From positions 248,001 through 312,000 of the forward strand of contig QWHH01000003.1 in assembly GCA_021404785.1 (NCBI GenBank): a stretch of 64,000 nucleotides of DNA, read 5' to 3'. Every line of letters starts with the position of its first letter. The first letter of the stretch is position 1. This stretch comes from Lysobacterales bacterium PRO7. GTDB lineage: Bacteria; Pseudomonadota; Gammaproteobacteria; Xanthomonadales; Rhodanobacteraceae. Below the pieces are notes generated by a model. The model made no database searches and was not told the DNA's origin. It saw nothing but the letters and a program-made list of their open reading frames with translations. A program made the position numbers and the translations under genes. Positions 12,477 to 20,159 of this stretch are shown here, piece after piece.

Positions 12477-13265
12477 ATGCAACTCGTCGACATCGGCGCC
12501 AACCTGACCCATGAATCCTTCCGGCACGATTTCGATGCGGTGCTGGCGCGCGCACATGCCAACAGCGTGACACAGCTCGTCGTCACCGGCGCATCCTTGC
12601 AGGGCTCGCGCGACGCGCTGGCCCTGGCGCGAGCGCATCCCGGCGTGCTGTTCGCAACCGCCGGCGTGCATCCGCATCACGCGGCGGATTTCGATGCCGA
12701 TACGGAAAGTGCGCTGCGCGAATTGCACACGCAACCGGAAATTGTGGCGGTCGGCGAAACCGGGCTGGACTATCACCGCAATTTTTCCCCGCGTACGGCG
12801 CAGCTGTTCGCGTTCGAGCGCCAGCTTGAGCTGGCCGCAGAATGCGGCAAGCCGTTGTTCCTGCACCAGCGCGACGCGCATGCCGATTTCATCGCCTGCA
12901 TGGACAATGTTCGCGGCCGCGTCGGTGCGGCCGTCGTGCATTGCTTCACCGGGGAGAAAGATGAGTTGTTCGACTATCTCGACCGCGATTTTTACATCGG
13001 CATCACCGGCTGGATTTGCGATGAGCGCCGCGGCACGCATCTGCGCGAACTGGTGAAGTCGATTCCATCCGATCGCCTGATGCTGGAAACCGACGCGCCG
13101 TACCTGTTGCCGCGCACCGTCAGCCCTGCGCCGTCACATCGGCGCAACGAGCCGATGTATCTCGCCCATATCTGCGCCGAAGTCGCGCGCGATCGCGGCG
13201 AGGAAGCGGTGGTCACCGCCGCGAAAGCGACGGCGGCAGCCAAAGCGTTTTTCGGACTGCCCTAG
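12477..13265 (+). CDS. tatD: TatD family metal-dependent DNase
   Basis: This 262-residue TIM-barrel hydrolase resembles E. coli TatD along its whole length (DIGANLTHESF, AGVHPHHAADF, VGETGLDYHRNFSP, LHQRDAHADF, VVHCFTGEKDE, GITGWICDERRG, LETDAPYLLPR, SHRRNEP). TatD is a 3'-5' exonuclease acting in DNA quality control. Metal ligands expected in this family are visible: Glu in GETGLD, His in FLHQRD and VHCFTG, Asp in ETDAPY. The stop overlaps the stop of the convergent yadH-like gene by four bases. No tatABC genes are adjacent. Confidence 0.95.
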   Translation: MQLVDIGANLTHESFRHDFDAVLARAHANSVTQLVVTGASLQGSRDALALARAHPGVLFATAGVHPHHAADFDADTESALRELHTQPEIVAVGETGLDYHRNFSPRTAQLFAFERQLELAAECGKPLFLHQRDAHADFIACMDNVRGRVGAAVVHCFTGEKDELFDYLDRDFYIGITGWICDERRGTHLRELVKSIPSDRLMLETDAPYLLPRTVSPAPSHRRNEPMYLAHICAEVARDRGEEAVVTAAKATAAAKAFFGLP

Positions 13266-14049
13266 GACCGCAGCCCAACGCCACGTTTGAGAAGCGTCAG
13301 GCAGAACGCGCCGAGCACGACGACAAAGATCAGCATCACCGCATACGCCCAGGCCAAGTTGATTTCGTTGACGCCGAGCAAGCCGTAGCGGAACGCGCCG
13401 ACCATGTACAGGATCGGGTTGAGATGCGAGATTTCCTTCCACGGACTCGGCAATTGCGCGACGTTGTAGAACACGCCGCCCAGGTAGGTAAGTGGCGTCA
13501 GGATGAAGGTCGGGATGATCGCGATGTCGTCGAACTTGCGCGCGAAGATCGCGTTGATGAAGCCGAGCAGGCCGAAGATCGTCGCGGCCAGCACGAAGGT
13601 GCTGAGCGTGACGAACGGATGGTAGAGGTGGATCTTGGTGAAGAACAGGGAAATGCCGAGCACGATCACGCCGACCATGAAGCCGCGCAGCACCGCGCCG
13701 GAAATGTAGCCGGTCAAAATCGTCCAGCTCGGCATCGGCGAAACCAGCATTTCTTCGACAAATCGTTGAAATTTCGCACCGAAGAAGGAACTGGTGATGT
13801 TGCCGTAGGCGTTCTGGATCACGCTCATCATGATCAGCCCGGGCGCGATGTATTCGATGTAGGAAATCGGCGCACCGGCATCCGTGCGCGCCATCTCGCC
13901 GATGCGGCTGCCGATCAGCGCCCCGAAGATTATGAAGTACAGCGTCACCGTGATCGCCGGCGGCAGCAGGGTCTGCGTCCAGATGCGCAGGATGCGCATC
14001 ACCTCGCGGCGCACGATGGTGCCAAGCGCGATCAGTGTCAGTTCGGCGT

Positions 14050-14053
<4 letters not shown>
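13262..14053 (-). CDS. yadH: ABC-2 type transporter permease (YadH-like)
   Basis: The 263-residue polytopic protein has about six hydrophobic segments and the ABC-2 family signature region FQRFVEEMLVSPMPSWTIL followed by LTPLTYLGGVFYNVAQLPSPW. Gene order and sequence match the E. coli YadG/YadH exporter, whose substrate is not established. Its start ATG overlaps the stop of the ATPase gene by four bases (ATGA at 14050-14053), so the two subunits are translationally coupled. Confidence 0.92.
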
Positions 14054-14985
<932 letters not shown>

Positions 14986-15048
14986 GGGCTGCATATTCGG
15001 TGCGGGACGGGTAGTATAGCGGCCCTTTCGATTTGCCGAATTCGCATC

Positions 15049-15789
15049 GTGGCCGATCACTTCCAACTCCGTTTGGTCGAAAGCCGCATGCTCGCGCCTG
15101 CGGTGCGGCACATGGCATTTGAGCGTGCCGACGGCGCGCCGTTCGCGTTCGTGCCCGGCCAGTTCGTGCAAATCCATTTCAATTATGCGGACGGCAAGCC
15201 GACCAAGCGCAGCTATTCGGTGGCGACAATCGGCGATGGCAGCGCGGTGGGGCGCATCGAGATCGCGGTCTCCTACGTCGAGGGCGGCGCGGCCACGAAC
15301 CTGCTCGCGAACCTGCCGGACGGCGGGATGGTCGACGCGAGCGGCCCGTACGGGCGCTTCTGCCTGGACGACAAGGACGCCAATCGCCGCTACCTGCTGG
15401 TCGCCACCGGCACCGGCGTGACGCCGTATCGCGCGATGCTGCCGCAACTGGATAAGCTCGGCGCGCGCGGTGCTGAAGTTGCACTGGTCTATGGCGCGCG
15501 CAACGAAACCGAGTTGCTCTACAGTGAGGAATTCGAGGCGTTCGCGAAGAAGAATCCACATTTCCACTTCTATGCCTGCTTCTCGCGAGCGCCACGCTCG
15601 CAACCGCGCGCGCACGACCGCAATGGCCGCGTGCATGTTGCGCTGGATGAATTGAAGCCCGACGCCACGCACGACATCGCCTACTTGTGCGGCAATCCGG
15701 ACATGGTCGACCAGGCGTTCGCGATGTTGAAGGAAGCCGGGCTGCCGGTGCCGCACATCAGGCGCGAGAAATACGTCTCGTCCCGGTAA
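15049..15789 (+). CDS. Ferredoxin/flavodoxin NADP reductase-like flavoprotein
   Basis: The 246-residue protein has the two domains of the ferredoxin-NADP reductase fold. The FAD-binding barrel carries RSYSVATIG (the RxYS motif) after PGQFVQIHF, and the NAD(P) domain carries VATGTGVTPYRAM, LVYGARNETELLY and YLCGNPDMVDQAF. It should pass electrons between NAD(P)H and a small iron-sulphur or flavin carrier. The start is GTG (MADHFQLRL); no earlier start in this frame is free of the divergent yadG promoter region. There is no partner carrier gene nearby, so the physiological acceptor is open. Confidence 0.85.
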   Translation: MADHFQLRLVESRMLAPAVRHMAFERADGAPFAFVPGQFVQIHFNYADGKPTKRSYSVATIGDGSAVGRIEIAVSYVEGGAATNLLANLPDGGMVDASGPYGRFCLDDKDANRRYLLVATGTGVTPYRAMLPQLDKLGARGAEVALVYGARNETELLYSEEFEAFAKKNPHFHFYACFSRAPRSQPRAHDRNGRVHVALDELKPDATHDIAYLCGNPDMVDQAFAMLKEAGLPVPHIRREKYVSSR

Positions 15790-15795
15790 TCTTCC

Positions 15796-15813
15796 TGTAA
15801 AGGATGCTTGACA
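15796..15813. promoter_or_regulatory. Operator 1 of the XRE/NatAB operon
   Basis: TGTAAAG-GATG-CTTGACA is a near-perfect dyad (TGTMAAG-N4-CTTKACA). It contains the whole -35 hexamer TTGACA, so a bound protein would block RNA polymerase. The inverted copy lies at 15843-15860 with all 14 arm bases identical; only the four central bases differ. Confidence 0.7.
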
Positions 15814-15836
15814 CATCCGGCATCCGCCGCTACAGT
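15808..15836 (+). promoter_or_regulatory. Sigma-70 promoter of the five-gene operon
   Basis: TTGACA (15808-15813), a spacer of exactly 17 bases and TACAGT (15831-15836) give a strong predicted promoter. Transcription should start near 15843, at the edge of operator 2. Confidence 0.75.
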
Positions 15837-15842
15837 GCGGCC

Positions 15843-15860
15843 TGTCAAGTTAGCTTTACA
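15843..15860. promoter_or_regulatory. Operator 2 of the XRE/NatAB operon
   Basis: TGTCAAG-TTAG-CTTTACA is the inverted twin of operator 1 and covers about +1 to +18 of the predicted transcript. The centres of the two sites are 47 bases apart. The likely ligand is the small XRE regulator encoded at 16472-16675. Confidence 0.7.
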
Positions 15861-15878
15861 TGTTGAGGAATGGCTGCG

Positions 15879-16475
15879 ATGGTCCGCCTGAGCCGGCAAG
15901 CACACCAGCGTCGCATCATGATCGCCATGACGATCTACGTGGTCGTGCTGCTTTTGGTCTGGCCACTGGCGCGGTCCGAAACGGCGCTCTGGCTCAAGGC
16001 CCTGTATGCGCTCGCACCGGTGCCGCCGATCCTTTACGTGATCTGGTTGATGGCGCGCTGGGTGCTCGCCAGCGACGAACTCGAACAACGCACGCACCTG
16101 ATCGGCCTCGGCGTGGCCGCGGCGACGGTTTCGGTCTTTGGCATCGTCACCGGCTTCCTGGCGGTGGCGCACGTGTTCACGCTGGACTGGGCGGCGACGG
16201 CGCTGATCTGGATATTCCCGCTGCTGATCGTCGTCTACAGTGCGGGTCGTGCCTATGCCGCAAGGCGCTACGGCAGCGGCACCTGCGACGAAGGTACGCC
16301 GGTCGCGGTGCGCTTTTTGTACGTGGCCGGGCTGTTGACCGTGGCAGCCGCCTACATGTATTGGCACAAGGGCGACGCCGGGAGTGCGGGATTCGCAGCC
16401 GGCATGGGCGCCGGCATGCTGGGCGGTGCGCTGTTCTTCGCTGTGCGCCAACGCCTGCGCCGGTCGGACGAATGA
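15879..16475 (+). CDS. Polytopic membrane protein, first gene of XRE/NatAB operon
   Basis: The 198-residue product has a basic N-terminus (RLSRQAHQRR) and about six hydrophobic segments, with a charged loop SDELEQRTHLIG after the second and GKARRYGSG-like basic turns between later ones. I do not recognise a named family. Small membrane proteins encoded directly before a short XRE regulator are common in bacteria, and some influence that regulator. The ATG at 15879 has GAGGA nine bases upstream, which suits better than the ATG at 15870, where the spacing is one base. It overlaps the regulator gene by four bases. Confidence 0.75.
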   Translation: MVRLSRQAHQRRIMIAMTIYVVVLLLVWPLARSETALWLKALYALAPVPPILYVIWLMARWVLASDELEQRTHLIGLGVAAATVSVFGIVTGFLAVAHVFTLDWAATALIWIFPLLIVVYSAGRAYAARRYGSGTCDEGTPVAVRFLYVAGLLTVAAAYMYWHKGDAGSAGFAAGMGAGMLGGALFFAVRQRLRRSDE

Positions 16476-16675
16476 AGAACCGCGTGCGCGAGCTGCGCGA
16501 AAAGCACGGTTGGTCGCAGGGCGAGCTGGGCGAAAGGCTCGATGTGTCCAGGCAGACGGTGAACGCCATCGAGACCGGCAAGTACGATCCGAGCCTGCCG
16601 CTGGCATTCAAGATCGGGAAATTGTTCGGACAGCGCATCGAAGCATTGTTCGAGTACGACGAGGAGACGAGATGA
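16472..16675 (+). CDS. Small XRE-family transcriptional regulator
   Basis: At 67 residues this is essentially a lone helix-turn-helix domain: VRELREKHGWSQGELGERL, then DVSRQTVNAIETGKYDPSLP, the recognition region, and a short tail (LFGQRIEALFEYDEE) typical of the YozG/compact Cro-like group. There is no sensing domain. It overlaps both neighbours by four bases (ATGA), so it is made with the membrane protein and the hydrolase. The paired operators upstream of the operon (15796-15813, 15843-15860) are its likely targets, giving autoregulation; this is inferred. Confidence 0.9.
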   Translation: MKNRVRELREKHGWSQGELGERLDVSRQTVNAIETGKYDPSLPLAFKIGKLFGQRIEALFEYDEETR

Positions 16676-18231
16676 AACTGGATACACGAACCGTCTTGCG
16701 CATCGCCATTGCCGTCGCGGTAGTCGGCTATCTGGCGTTCACGCAATTCGCCAAAACGCATGACGGCGACAGGCACGCGCCCAAGCTGGCTGCGCCAATT
16801 GCAGCGAACGCGAAGGCGTTCACGCTGGGCGCGCTGGCGTTCAAGACCTGCGAGCTGGCGCAGAAACATTCCGGTGCGACCACGAGCGCGTTCTGCGCGC
16901 CGTTTTCGGTGCCAGAGAATCGTGCGGATGCGAATGGCCGCAAACTTCAGCTACGTCTGGCGCTGATCAAGTCAGACGCGGCTGCCGCCGACAGCGATAT
17001 CGTCGTGTTTCTCGCCGGCGGTCCCGGACAGTCGGCGGTCGATACCTGGCCGCAGGTCGCGCCGGCGTTCGCGCCGCTGCTCGCGCATCATCACGTGTTG
17101 CTGCTCGACCAGCGCGGCACTGGCGGTTCCAACGCACTGGAATGCAAAGGCGACGGCGCGGACAAGGAAGATGCCGACCGTGATGGCGGTTTCGATGCAG
17201 CCAAGGCGAAGCGTCATACGCAAGAGTGTCTGGATCTGGTTTCCAAACACGCCGATCCGCGCTTCTACACCACCATCGACGCGGTTGCCGATCTGGAAGC
17301 CGTGCGCCAGGCGCTCGGCGCGCCGCAATTCGATCTGGTCGGCGTGTCCTACGGCACGCGTATGGCGCAGCAGTACGCGATGCGCCATGCGGACGGCGTG
17401 CGCAGCATCGTGCTCGATTCGGTGGCGCCGAACGAGATCGCGTTGGGCCAGGACTTCGCCGAGAATCTCGACAGCGCGCTGAAACTGCAATTCGCGCAGT
17501 GCGACAAAACGCCGGCGTGCAAGAGCGCGTTCGGCGATTCCTACGTGAACCTGATGAAGCTGCGCGATGCCTTGCGCGACAAGCTGCAGGATTACATCTA
17601 CCGCGACCCGGTCACATTCGAAACGCAAACGAAACATCTGAATGGATCGTCGTTGGCCGGTCTTGTGCGCATGTTTGCTTACACACCGGAGACAGCCGCA
17701 TTGCTTCCCCTGTCGATCGCGGAAGGATTGAAGGGCGACTTCACGCCGCTTGCCGGGCAGACCCAGGTGCTGACCGGCGACATGGCCGATCTGGCCGAGA
17801 ACGCGATGCAGTTGTCGGTGATCTGCAGCGAGGATGCGGACTTGCTCTCTCCAAGGTCACAGGATGAAAACCTGCTGCTCGGCAACCATCTCGTGAACGG
17901 CATCAAGACGGCGTGCGAGGTCTGGCCGCACGCTGCGCGGCCGGCCGATTTCCACGCGCCGCTGAAAACGGACAAGCCAGTCCTGATCCTGGAAGGCGCG
18001 TTCGATCCGGTCACGCCGCCGCGCTATGGCGAACAGGTAATGAAAGGTTTCTCGAATGCGAAGCTGATCGTCGCAAAAGGTCAGGGCCACAACGTCATCG
18101 GCCGCGGCTGCATTCCGAAACTGGTCGGCGAGTTCGTCGACAAGCTCGATCCGAAAACACTCGATGCGATGTGCGTGGATCGCCTCGGCCCGATGCCGGC
18201 GTTCGTCAACTTCAACGGTTCATCTCCATAG
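16672..18231 (+). CDS. Membrane-anchored alpha/beta hydrolase, S33 aminopeptidase type
   Basis: This 519-residue protein has an N-terminal signal/anchor (LRIAIAVAVVGYLAFTQF) and an alpha/beta hydrolase fold. It shows FLAGGPGQSAV (oxyanion region), LLDQRGTGGSN, the nucleophile elbow GVSYG with Ser226, the acid in EGAFDPVTPPRYG and the His in KGQGHNVIGRGC, followed by a TAP-like C-terminal domain. This is the pattern of proline iminopeptidase or tripeptidyl aminopeptidase relatives (SlpD/E type). It should act in the periplasm on short peptides or an ester; the substrate is unknown. Ten bases separate it from the ABC genes, so export and hydrolysis probably serve one process. Confidence 0.85.
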   Translation: MKLDTRTVLRIAIAVAVVGYLAFTQFAKTHDGDRHAPKLAAPIAANAKAFTLGALAFKTCELAQKHSGATTSAFCAPFSVPENRADANGRKLQLRLALIKSDAAAADSDIVVFLAGGPGQSAVDTWPQVAPAFAPLLAHHHVLLLDQRGTGGSNALECKGDGADKEDADRDGGFDAAKAKRHTQECLDLVSKHADPRFYTTIDAVADLEAVRQALGAPQFDLVGVSYGTRMAQQYAMRHADGVRSIVLDSVAPNEIALGQDFAENLDSALKLQFAQCDKTPACKSAFGDSYVNLMKLRDALRDKLQDYIYRDPVTFETQTKHLNGSSLAGLVRMFAYTPETAALLPLSIAEGLKGDFTPLAGQTQVLTGDMADLAENAMQLSVICSEDADLLSPRSQDENLLLGNHLVNGIKTACEVWPHAARPADFHAPLKTDKPVLILEGAFDPVTPPRYGEQVMKGFSNAKLIVAKGQGHNVIGRGCIPKLVGEFVDKLDPKTLDAMCVDRLGPMPAFVNFNGSSP

Positions 18232-18240
18232 GATCAGGCC

Positions 18241-18987
18241 ATGATCGAAGTCAGAAATCTGCACAAGGCGTTCGGCAAGGGCGCCAAGCGCATGGTCGCG
18301 GTGGATGGCGTGTCGTTCGTCGCGCGCGACGGCGAAATCACCGGTCTGCTCGGCCCGAACGGCGCCGGCAAGACCACCACGCTGCGTTGCCTGTACACCC
18401 TGATGAGCCCCGATTCCGGGCAGGTGCTGGTGGACGGCATCGACGCTGCAGTCGACCCGGTCGCGGTGCGCCGGCGCCTGGGCGTATTGCCGGATGCGCG
18501 CGGTCTGTACAAACGTCTGACCGCACGCGAGAACATCGATTATTTCGCGCGCCTGCACGGCATCCAGACGCAGACCATGCACGCGCGGCGCGAATCGCTC
18601 GCCGATGCGCTGGAGATGCGCGACATCCTGGATCGCCGCACCGAAGGCTTCTCGCAAGGCCAGCGCGTCAAGACCGCGATCGCGCGCGCGCTGGTGCACG
18701 ATCCGAAAAACGTGATCCTCGACGAGCCGACCAATGGGCTGGACGTGATGTCCACGCGCGCGATGCGCACGTTCCTGAAATCGATGAAGACGGAAAGGCG
18801 CTGCGTGCTGTTCTCCAGCCACATCATGCAGGAAGTGGCGGCGCTGTGCGATCGCATCGTCGTCATCGCGCGCGGCCGTGTCGTCGCCGACGAGTCGCCG
18901 GATGCGCTGCGCGCGCAAACCGGCGAGACGAACCTGGAAGACGCATTCGTCAAATTGATCGGCACCGATGAAGGACTCGCCGCATGA
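18241..18987 (+). CDS. natA: ABC transporter ATPase, NatA-like
   Basis: The 248-residue ATPase has Walker A GLLGPNGAGKTTTLRC, an atypical signature FSQGQRVKTAIARAL (Q in place of the second G), Walker B NVILDEPTNGLDV and SSHIMQEVAALC for the switch region. NatA of Bacillus and its relatives share this signature and pair with NatB-type permeases that have a large external loop. It overlaps natB by four bases. Sodium export is the founding function, but many homologues have unknown substrates, so the symbol is by similarity only. Confidence 0.85.
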   Translation: MIEVRNLHKAFGKGAKRMVAVDGVSFVARDGEITGLLGPNGAGKTTTLRCLYTLMSPDSGQVLVDGIDAAVDPVAVRRRLGVLPDARGLYKRLTARENIDYFARLHGIQTQTMHARRESLADALEMRDILDRRTEGFSQGQRVKTAIARALVHDPKNVILDEPTNGLDVMSTRAMRTFLKSMKTERRCVLFSSHIMQEVAALCDRIVVIARGRVVADESPDALRAQTGETNLEDAFVKLIGTDEGLAA

Positions 18988-20159
18988 ACTCCGCCATCAC
19001 CGTATTTTTCAAGGAAGTCCGCGAGAATATTCGCGACCGCCGCACCGTGATCAACACGCTGTTCGTCGGCCCCCTGATGGCGCCGCTGATCTTCGTGCTG
19101 CTGATCAACACCCTGGTCACGCGCGAGCTGTCGAAGGCGGAAAAGCCGCTGCCATTGCCGGTCGTCGGTGCGCAATACGCGCCGAACCTGATCGCGGCGC
19201 TCAAGCAGAACAACGTGGACATCAAGCCCGCACCCGAAGATCCGGATGCCGCCGTGCGCAACCAGGATGCCGACGTCGTGCTGCGCATCGGCCCGGATTT
19301 CGTGAAAGCATGGGACAAGGGCGAACCGGCGCAGGTCGAGATGATCTACGACGCCTCGCAACAGGACGCGCGCGGGCCGACCGAACGCCTGAAGAAACTG
19401 ATCGAGGGTTATGGCCAGCGCACCGGCGCTTTGCGCCTGCTTGCGCGCGGGCTGTCGCCGTCGATCCTGAAACCCGTGGTGATTGCCGACCGCGACCAGT
19501 CCACGCCGCAAAGCCGCGCCGGACTCATGTTCGCGATGCTGCCGTACTTCTTCATACTCGGCGGTTTCATCGGTGGCATGGCGCTGGCCATCGATACCAC
19601 TGCCGGTGAACGCGAGCGTCAGTCGCTGGAGCCCTTGCTTGCCAATCCGGTGCCGCGCTGGAAGATTCTCGGCGGCAAGTTGATGGCGACAACCGCGTTT
19701 GCGATCACGACGGTGGCGTTGTCGATCATCGCGTTCGCCGTCGTCGGCCAGTTCCTGCCGACGGAAAAGATCGGCATGAGCCTGACCCTCGGCCCGCGTT
19801 TCATCGTCGCCACCGTGTTCGTGATGCTGCCGCTGGCCGCCTTGCTCGGCGCCTTGCAGACGCTCGTCGCCGCGTTCGCCAAGAGTTACCGCGAAGCGCA
19901 GACTTATCTGTCGCTGCTCATGCTCGTGCCGATCATCCCGACCTTGCTGTTGTCGATCCTGCCGATCAAGACGCAGTTGTGGATGTACGCCGTGCCACTG
20001 CTCGGCCAGCAGGTCACGATCATGCGCCTGATGCGCGGCGATCCGGTATCGGACATGGCCTTGCTGATCTGCTTCGTTTGCACGTCCATCGCCGCGCTCG
20101 TGGTGTGTGCGGTCACCGCGCGGATTTACTACAGCGAGCGCCTGGCGATTTCGGCGTAG
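18984..20159 (+). CDS. natB: ABC transporter permease, NatB-like
   Basis: The 391-residue permease begins with KEVRENIRDRRTVINTLFVGP, the family's cytosolic lead, then one membrane helix (about 25-45), a large external domain (about 50-180) and five or six helices in the C-terminal half (MLPYFFILGGFIGGMALA, ETIAGERERQSLEPLL-like coupling segment, LLMLVPIIPTLLLSIL). This is the ABC-2 type 3 layout of NatB. It is the last gene of the operon and is followed by convergent comM after three bases. Confidence 0.85.
   Translation: MNSAITVFFKEVRENIRDRRTVINTLFVGPLMAPLIFVLLINTLVTRELSKAEKPLPLPVVGAQYAPNLIAALKQNNVDIKPAPEDPDAAVRNQDADVVLRIGPDFVKAWDKGEPAQVEMIYDASQQDARGPTERLKKLIEGYGQRTGALRLLARGLSPSILKPVVIADRDQSTPQSRAGLMFAMLPYFFILGGFIGGMALAIDTTAGERERQSLEPLLANPVPRWKILGGKLMATTAFAITTVALSIIAFAVVGQFLPTEKIGMSLTLGPRFIVATVFVMLPLAALLGALQTLVAAFAKSYREAQTYLSLLMLVPIIPTLLLSILPIKTQLWMYAVPLLGQQVTIMRLMRGDPVSDMALLICFVCTSIAALVVCAVTARIYYSERLAISA

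Follow-up and report, generated by a model that had tools for sequence, protein, structure and literature searches.

The stretch of Lysobacterales bacterium PRO7 analysed here (64,000 nucleotides, referred to as the window) contains a five-gene operon whose promoter lies between two copies of an 18-bp site, sought with the pattern TGTMAAG-N4-CTTKACA. Judged by their conservation, these sites are strongly supported as operators of the 67-residue XRE protein, whose gene comes second in the operon. Ahead of it, in first place, lies a gene for a membrane protein, and relatives of both proteins occur together in many other bacteria. The features of the locus are the following.

15796..15813, + strand: operator 1, TGTAAAG-GATG-CTTGACA, an exact match whose right arm includes the -35 hexamer; kept in 41 of 41 orthologous loci
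15808..15813, + strand: -35 hexamer TTGACA, from the promoter scan
15831..15836, + strand: -10 hexamer TACAGT with a spacer of 17, from the promoter scan
15843..15860, + strand: operator 2, TGTCAAG-TTAG-CTTTACA, an exact match with its first base 6 after the -10 hexamer, at about +1; conserved
15870..16475, + strand: membrane protein of 201 amino acids with a conserved DELEQRTHL loop and, by hydropathy, six membrane helices; the start may be 15879 as in the orthologues
16472..16675, + strand: putative XRE/HTH_3 repressor of 67 amino acids, CylR2-like; start and membrane-gene stop overlap in ATGA
16672..18231, + strand: alpha/beta hydrolase, TAP-like, 519 amino acids (PF00561, 95.1 bits; PF08386, 55.3 bits); the start overlaps the XRE stop
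18241..18987, + strand: ABC transporter ATPase of 248 amino acids (PF00005, 108.7 bits)
18984..20159, + strand: ABC-2 type permease of 391 amino acids (PF12698, 87.5 bits; PF12679, 86.6 bits); overlaps the ATPase gene

Each of the five genes overlaps or almost touches the next. The two sites lie where an initial annotation, made from the sequence alone, had placed them; both match the pattern with 0 mismatches, and operator 2 is the exact inverse of operator 1 in 14 of 14 arm bases, at a spacing of 47 bp. That annotation also holds for the promoter: TTGACA forms the final six bases of operator 1, and TTGACA-17-TACAGT, flanked by both sites, is the sole sigma-70-like match in 14800-18800 (10 of 12 consensus bases). 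Because shuffles of this region yield 0.7 such matches on average, the promoter match alone is not significant. Operator 2 would span approximately +1 to +18 if transcription begins 6-7 bases past the -10 hexamer. The XRE protein placed in the operon by the same annotation is a genuine gene, with a score of 57.8 bits to HTH_3 (PF01381) against a cut-off of 23.

A search of the 2.81-Mb genome with TGTMAAG-N4-CTTKACA and up to two mismatches, proposed earlier as a check, returned two exact copies, which are this pair only, none at one mismatch and one site at two mismatches. With uniform bases, chance would give about 0.001 exact sites per 64 kb and 0.04 per whole genome. At the level of three mismatches the window holds 3 sites against 2.6 expected, an unremarkable number, and significance is therefore limited to the exact pair.

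Orthologous loci (n = 41) were gathered by scanning bacterial genomes with the membrane protein and not with the sites; they include named records of Rhodanobacter, Dyella, Rudaea, Fulvimonas, Dokdonella and Mizugakiibacter. Lack of the dyads before orthologous genes had been named in advance as a finding against the proposal, and both sites are kept in 41 of 41 loci. Precisely two exact sites occur in the whole stretch in 40 of them, and in the remaining locus (L044) one of the two sites, which are 46 bp apart, departs from the pattern at a single base, the only mismatch among 82 sites. The XRE gene comes next in 40 of 41 loci, the other record (L036) ending before it. The hydrolase was matched in 40 loci; the ATPase was matched in 39 and the permease in 38, the remaining loci ending before these two genes.

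Pair statistics were compiled for 42 pairs, the window and the 41 loci. The sites are 43-47 bp apart in 41 pairs and 28 bp apart in one. Apart from the one mismatch, variation in the arms is confined to A/C at position 4 and its mirror position; the inner arms read CTTGACA in 41/42 and TGTCAAG in 37/42, and the outer arms are mixed. The -35 hexamer TTGACA is present in 41 of the 42 loci, and a TANNNT -10 hexamer at a spacer of 17 or 18 in 35. The closely spaced pair (L034, 2983-3028) consists of two identical, fully symmetric sites (TGTAAAGCTTGCTTTACA) just 28 bp apart, too short for the usual bracketing of a promoter. The membrane gene is duplicated in loci L021, L023, L033, L038 and L042, and also in genomes G018, G106 and G147, where a diverged copy comes directly after the first.

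Exact sites occur in 120 of 148 family genomes (two in 96, one in 6, three or four in 18), and the reversed site pattern is found in none. The membrane protein was detected in 117. Both occur in 116 genomes, the membrane gene only in 1, the sites only in 4 and neither in 27 (Fisher p 3e-24, a value that ignores relatedness and includes 11 membrane-negative genomes assigned by elimination). The sole genome with only the membrane gene (G064) has a pair with one mismatch per site, 44 bp apart. Some losses occur within genera that otherwise have sites and membrane gene, e.g. G017 and G078.

The link between sites and XRE gene was also followed from the DNA side. A search of 398 genomes of the phylum for twin sites alone found them in 10 genomes, three of which belong to the same family as the window, and found the reversed pattern in none. 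The seven other genomes contain eight twin loci; at seven of these the XRE gene is 57-75% identical to that of the window and is preceded by a membrane gene, and at the eighth (L098) neither gene was found. Among 369 genomes of the class, searched with a gap of 10-30, three more twin loci appeared, two with XRE and membrane genes; at the third (L106) neither gene was found on a contig that ends about 320 bases beyond the twin. Outside the family the twin search thus led to an XRE gene at 9 of 11 loci. The XRE profile used for this check was partly built from the first seven of these loci, which plain tblastn with the window XRE protein recovers too. A membrane profile built from the family of the window alone matches 8 of the 9 loci, and L105 is matched by a second profile only.

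Starting from the protein, a profile of the XRE family matched in 64 of 398 genomes of the phylum. The best 30 of these 64 and 10 plasmid loci (fetched of 30 listed matches from a 345-record plasmid search) formed a discovery set of 40 loci. A twin was defined as a pair of TGWMAAG-N4-CTTKWCA with at most three mismatches in total, 18-60 bp apart, upstream of the XRE gene. Such a twin is present in 28 of the 40 loci, compared with about none in random sequence, and the reversed pattern in 0 of 40. Nine loci are not independent, namely the window (L056), two family members (L055, L058) and six loci from the DNA search (L059, L062, L066, L069, L074, L082); without them the twin is present in 19 of 31. 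A less certain member of the 28 is L096, with its twin 1.6 kb upstream of the XRE gene.

The discovery loci lacking a twin mostly have the recognition helix SRQA and not SRQT or SRQS, a difference at residue 29. With a limit of 1200 bp, the twin is present at 26 of 31 discovery loci with Thr/Ser29 (17 of 22 without the nine) and at 0 of 9 with Ala29, 6 of which have a looser twin, GTCANG-N4-CNTGAC. The prediction for residue 29 was recorded before 40 held-out loci were fetched. These are weaker XRE matches, and their twin rate is clearly lower. The twin occurs in 18 of 32 held-out loci with Thr/Ser29 vs 0 of 7 with Ala29 (p 0.01), and the looser twin in the absence of the first in 5 of 7 with Ala29 vs 2 of 32 with Thr/Ser29 (p 0.0007). 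One held-out locus of another type has neither version, and reversed patterns occur in 0 of 40. Thr/Ser29 or Ala29 in the recognition helix thus predicts the operator version, held-out loci included.

The membrane protein of the window matches no Pfam family at E 0.001, nor at 0.1, and 29 relatives and 8 plasmid partners give scattered weak Pfam matches only. Its AlphaFold model is all-helical (predicted local distance difference test, pLDDT, 86), with generic bundles as the only structural matches. Among the best 30 of the 64 XRE loci, 24 carry a gene whose product has two or more predicted membrane helices and whose end lies within 60 bases of the XRE start. A comparison of profiles built from 30 family members and from 10 partners (other families and Streptomyces) gave a probability of 98.9 and E 1.6e-17 over 119 columns, so that the membrane proteins of the family and the outside partners very probably form one family. 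This protein family retains an acidic loop, DELEQRTHL in the family of the window. In proteobacterial families other than this one, and probably also outside the Pseudomonadota, the XRE gene is usually accompanied by a relative of the membrane protein.

A plasmid of Streptomyces caniferus carries a perfect twin, 30 bp apart, before an XRE gene, and another Streptomyces has three poorer sites, 21 bp apart. On a Staphylococcus xylosus plasmid the A-rich site TGTAAAA-N4-TTTGACA and the inverse TGTCAAA-N4-TTTTACA lie 47 bp apart around TTGACA-17-TATACT; with two mismatches per site this pair was excluded from the twin counts. A Bacillus subtilis plasmid has one site with one mismatch, and the Deinococcus gobiensis plasmid locus has no site. 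Each of the nine plasmid loci covered (of 10, all but that of D. taeanensis) has a small neighbouring gene for which hydropathy gives two to four membrane helices; at some loci it follows the XRE gene and does not precede it. On the Deinococcus taeanensis plasmid (L096, twin at 207-266) a hypothetical gene and, after it, an epimerase gene stand between the twin and the XRE gene, which suggests different cargo within this operon.

The computed conservation of the sites, their association with the XRE gene and with its recognition-helix residue, and the pairing of membrane and XRE genes lead to the following proposal. Co-occurrence and the reverse search strongly support the XRE protein as the likely ligand, as first proposed. 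It would bind each operator as a dimer, and we consider it highly likely that it represses through both sites. The block would be steric, operator 1 covering the -35 hexamer and operator 2 the start site. Since the XRE gene is the second gene of the same operon, the protein would limit its own synthesis along with that of the hydrolase and the ABC-2 exporter. The membrane protein may sense a membrane signal, bind the repressor and lift repression, by analogy with CylR1 acting on CylR2, which is itself a proposal; the chances that it is an anti-repressor of the XRE protein appear even.

Several observations weigh against this reading. Of the 30 XRE loci, 6 showed no membrane gene immediately upstream of the XRE gene; in one of these 6, tblastn does find it. 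A twin of the above definition was found neither in 12 of 40 discovery loci (12 of 31 after the exclusions) nor in 22 of 40 held-out loci. The Ala29 loci come largely from one family, f45 (11 of 16), and all counts ignore relatedness apart from a comparison within f45 alone, where the twin is present in 13 of 21 loci with Thr/Ser29 vs 0 of 11 with Ala29 (p 0.0006). Four family genomes carry sites while no membrane gene was detected. Near the perfect second twin of G521 (L098, 1987-2041) neither an XRE nor a membrane gene was found; about 380 bases downstream begins a frame which we take to resemble a glycosyltransferase. Binding and repression by the XRE protein, and its contact with the membrane protein, are what we infer from sequence. 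Three genomes of one genus (G042, G084, G129) carry a second twin (L099-L101) directly in front of a different gene. The sites thus serve more than autoregulation, and in this genus the repressor probably acts in trans on a further target. The second twins lie at 2020-2080 (L099), 2010-2070 (L100) and 2039-2098 (L101), and in L099 and L100 the protein encoded next to the twin begins like a signal peptide and gives a weak match to a Sel1 repeat, under the cut-off.

In a variant of the proposed mechanism the dimers bound to the two operators touch across the promoter, and this contact, not a simple block, is the switch. The pair itself is a large dyad, as the inner arms are nearly always of the C form (CTTGACA in 41/42, TGTCAAG in 37/42) and the outer arms vary, and the narrow spacing of 43-47 bp in 41 of 42 family pairs would suit such a bridge. 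That range alone, however, covers 0.4 turn, exact twins across lineages extend from 28 to 47 bp, or 2.7 to 4.5 helical turns with no obvious preferred phase, and weaker twins are found at 19-22 bp too (L070, L072, L076, L131), all of which makes bridging unlikely. The different placement of the two sites relative to one promoter would also fit a protein acting as an activator at operator 1 and as a repressor at operator 2; yet operator 1 overlies the -35 hexamer rather than sitting upstream of it, and a -35 hexamer that is the consensus TTGACA in 41 of 42 loci needs no activator, so we regard a dual role as quite improbable.

A toxin-antitoxin pair of membrane and XRE genes, with the sites serving the usual autoregulation by an antitoxin, is suggested by a small XRE protein beside a small partner and by low-scoring matches to antitoxin models (Y4mF-type and HigA). 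The scores are far under the cut-offs, however (Y4mF-type 39.3 vs 71.65, HigA 19.4 vs 47.7, HipB 18.7 vs 79 bits), the partner is a multi-helix membrane protein, and in the family of the window its gene is the first of five in a conserved operon that includes an exporter, which leaves little room for this explanation. A regulator encoded elsewhere, with the XRE gene as a passenger, would account for the few twins with no XRE gene nearby (L098; L099-L101); against such a regulator stand the recovery of the XRE gene at 9 of 11 loci of different families by the reverse search and the prediction of the operator version by XRE residue 29, and we consider it extremely improbable.

In structure the 67-residue XRE protein is closely related to CylR2, a protein of about 66 residues folded as a five-helix helix-turn-helix bundle with a small beta sheet; in size, fold and the lack of any other domain it agrees with the CylR2-like small repressors. 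In Enterococcus faecalis, CylR2 works with the membrane protein CylR1. Here too a membrane protein, of 201 amino acids and six helices, is encoded beside the repressor, its gene overlapping the XRE gene; the likeness is one of gene arrangement. The cytolysin regulators are described in PMC3709268 as divergent from the lantibiotic-type operon that they control and as answering to a secreted subunit, whereas the present pair is on the same strand and heads the regulated operon, whose cargo is a hydrolase and an ABC-2 exporter. Also among the closest relatives is DR_2454 of Deinococcus radiodurans (PDB 9k3w), listed as a putative transcription regulator; literature searches aimed at it returned no description of an operator or partner. 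The initial annotation thus stands for the sites, their conservation and the XRE link; it had overlooked the membrane protein, the wide distribution of the module and the relatives CylR2 and DR_2454.

Autoregulated XRE repressors with palindromes are an already known kind. A survey published in Life in 2025 (PMC12565409) reports XRE proteins with palindromes before their own genes, 9 of 10 tested interactions showing binding; as here, these are XRE repressors with palindromic operators, dimeric in that study. The survey covered 200 bp upstream of the XRE frame, and would mostly miss the present arrangement because the operators lie farther upstream (435-960 bp from the XRE gene in 25 of 28 discovery twin loci, more than 400 bp in 14 of 18 held-out twin loci). 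Overlap with its motifs is possible. The motif had at first been matched to no named regulator, and our literature searches, the motif tables of that survey excepted, likewise gave no description of the present operator. New here are the defined twin operator of a CylR2-type repressor, a family of membrane partners that lacks annotation, and the exporter-operon cargo in the Rhodanobacteraceae lineage.

As the twin sites travel with the repressor gene, and usually with the membrane-protein gene, through many bacterial groups, the module looks like a widespread, little-studied switch and not a one-off. On balance it could equally be, or not be, a broad one-step membrane-signalling system in which a Pfam-less helical membrane protein controls a CylR2-like repressor at promoter-bracketing TGWMAAG-N4-CTTKWCA twins, across Pseudomonadota and, with parts changed or reordered, Actinomycetota and Bacillota, residue 29 largely setting operator choice. 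For CylR1/CylR2, PMC3709268 states that it is not understood how a 66-residue repressor lacking a sensing domain receives a signal from a membrane protein. With the present module this question arises again in environmental bacteria, where the operator is defined, natural variants number in the dozens and a residue correlates with a base. Genome searches with the operator can also reveal which genes are controlled by a regulator family that otherwise lacks annotation.

The reading frame just upstream of the sites, ending at 15789, presumably encodes a ferredoxin-NADP-reductase-like protein, and just upstream of it, at 13262-15118 on the minus strand, lie frames that we take to resemble another ABC-2 type exporter (ATPase and permease).
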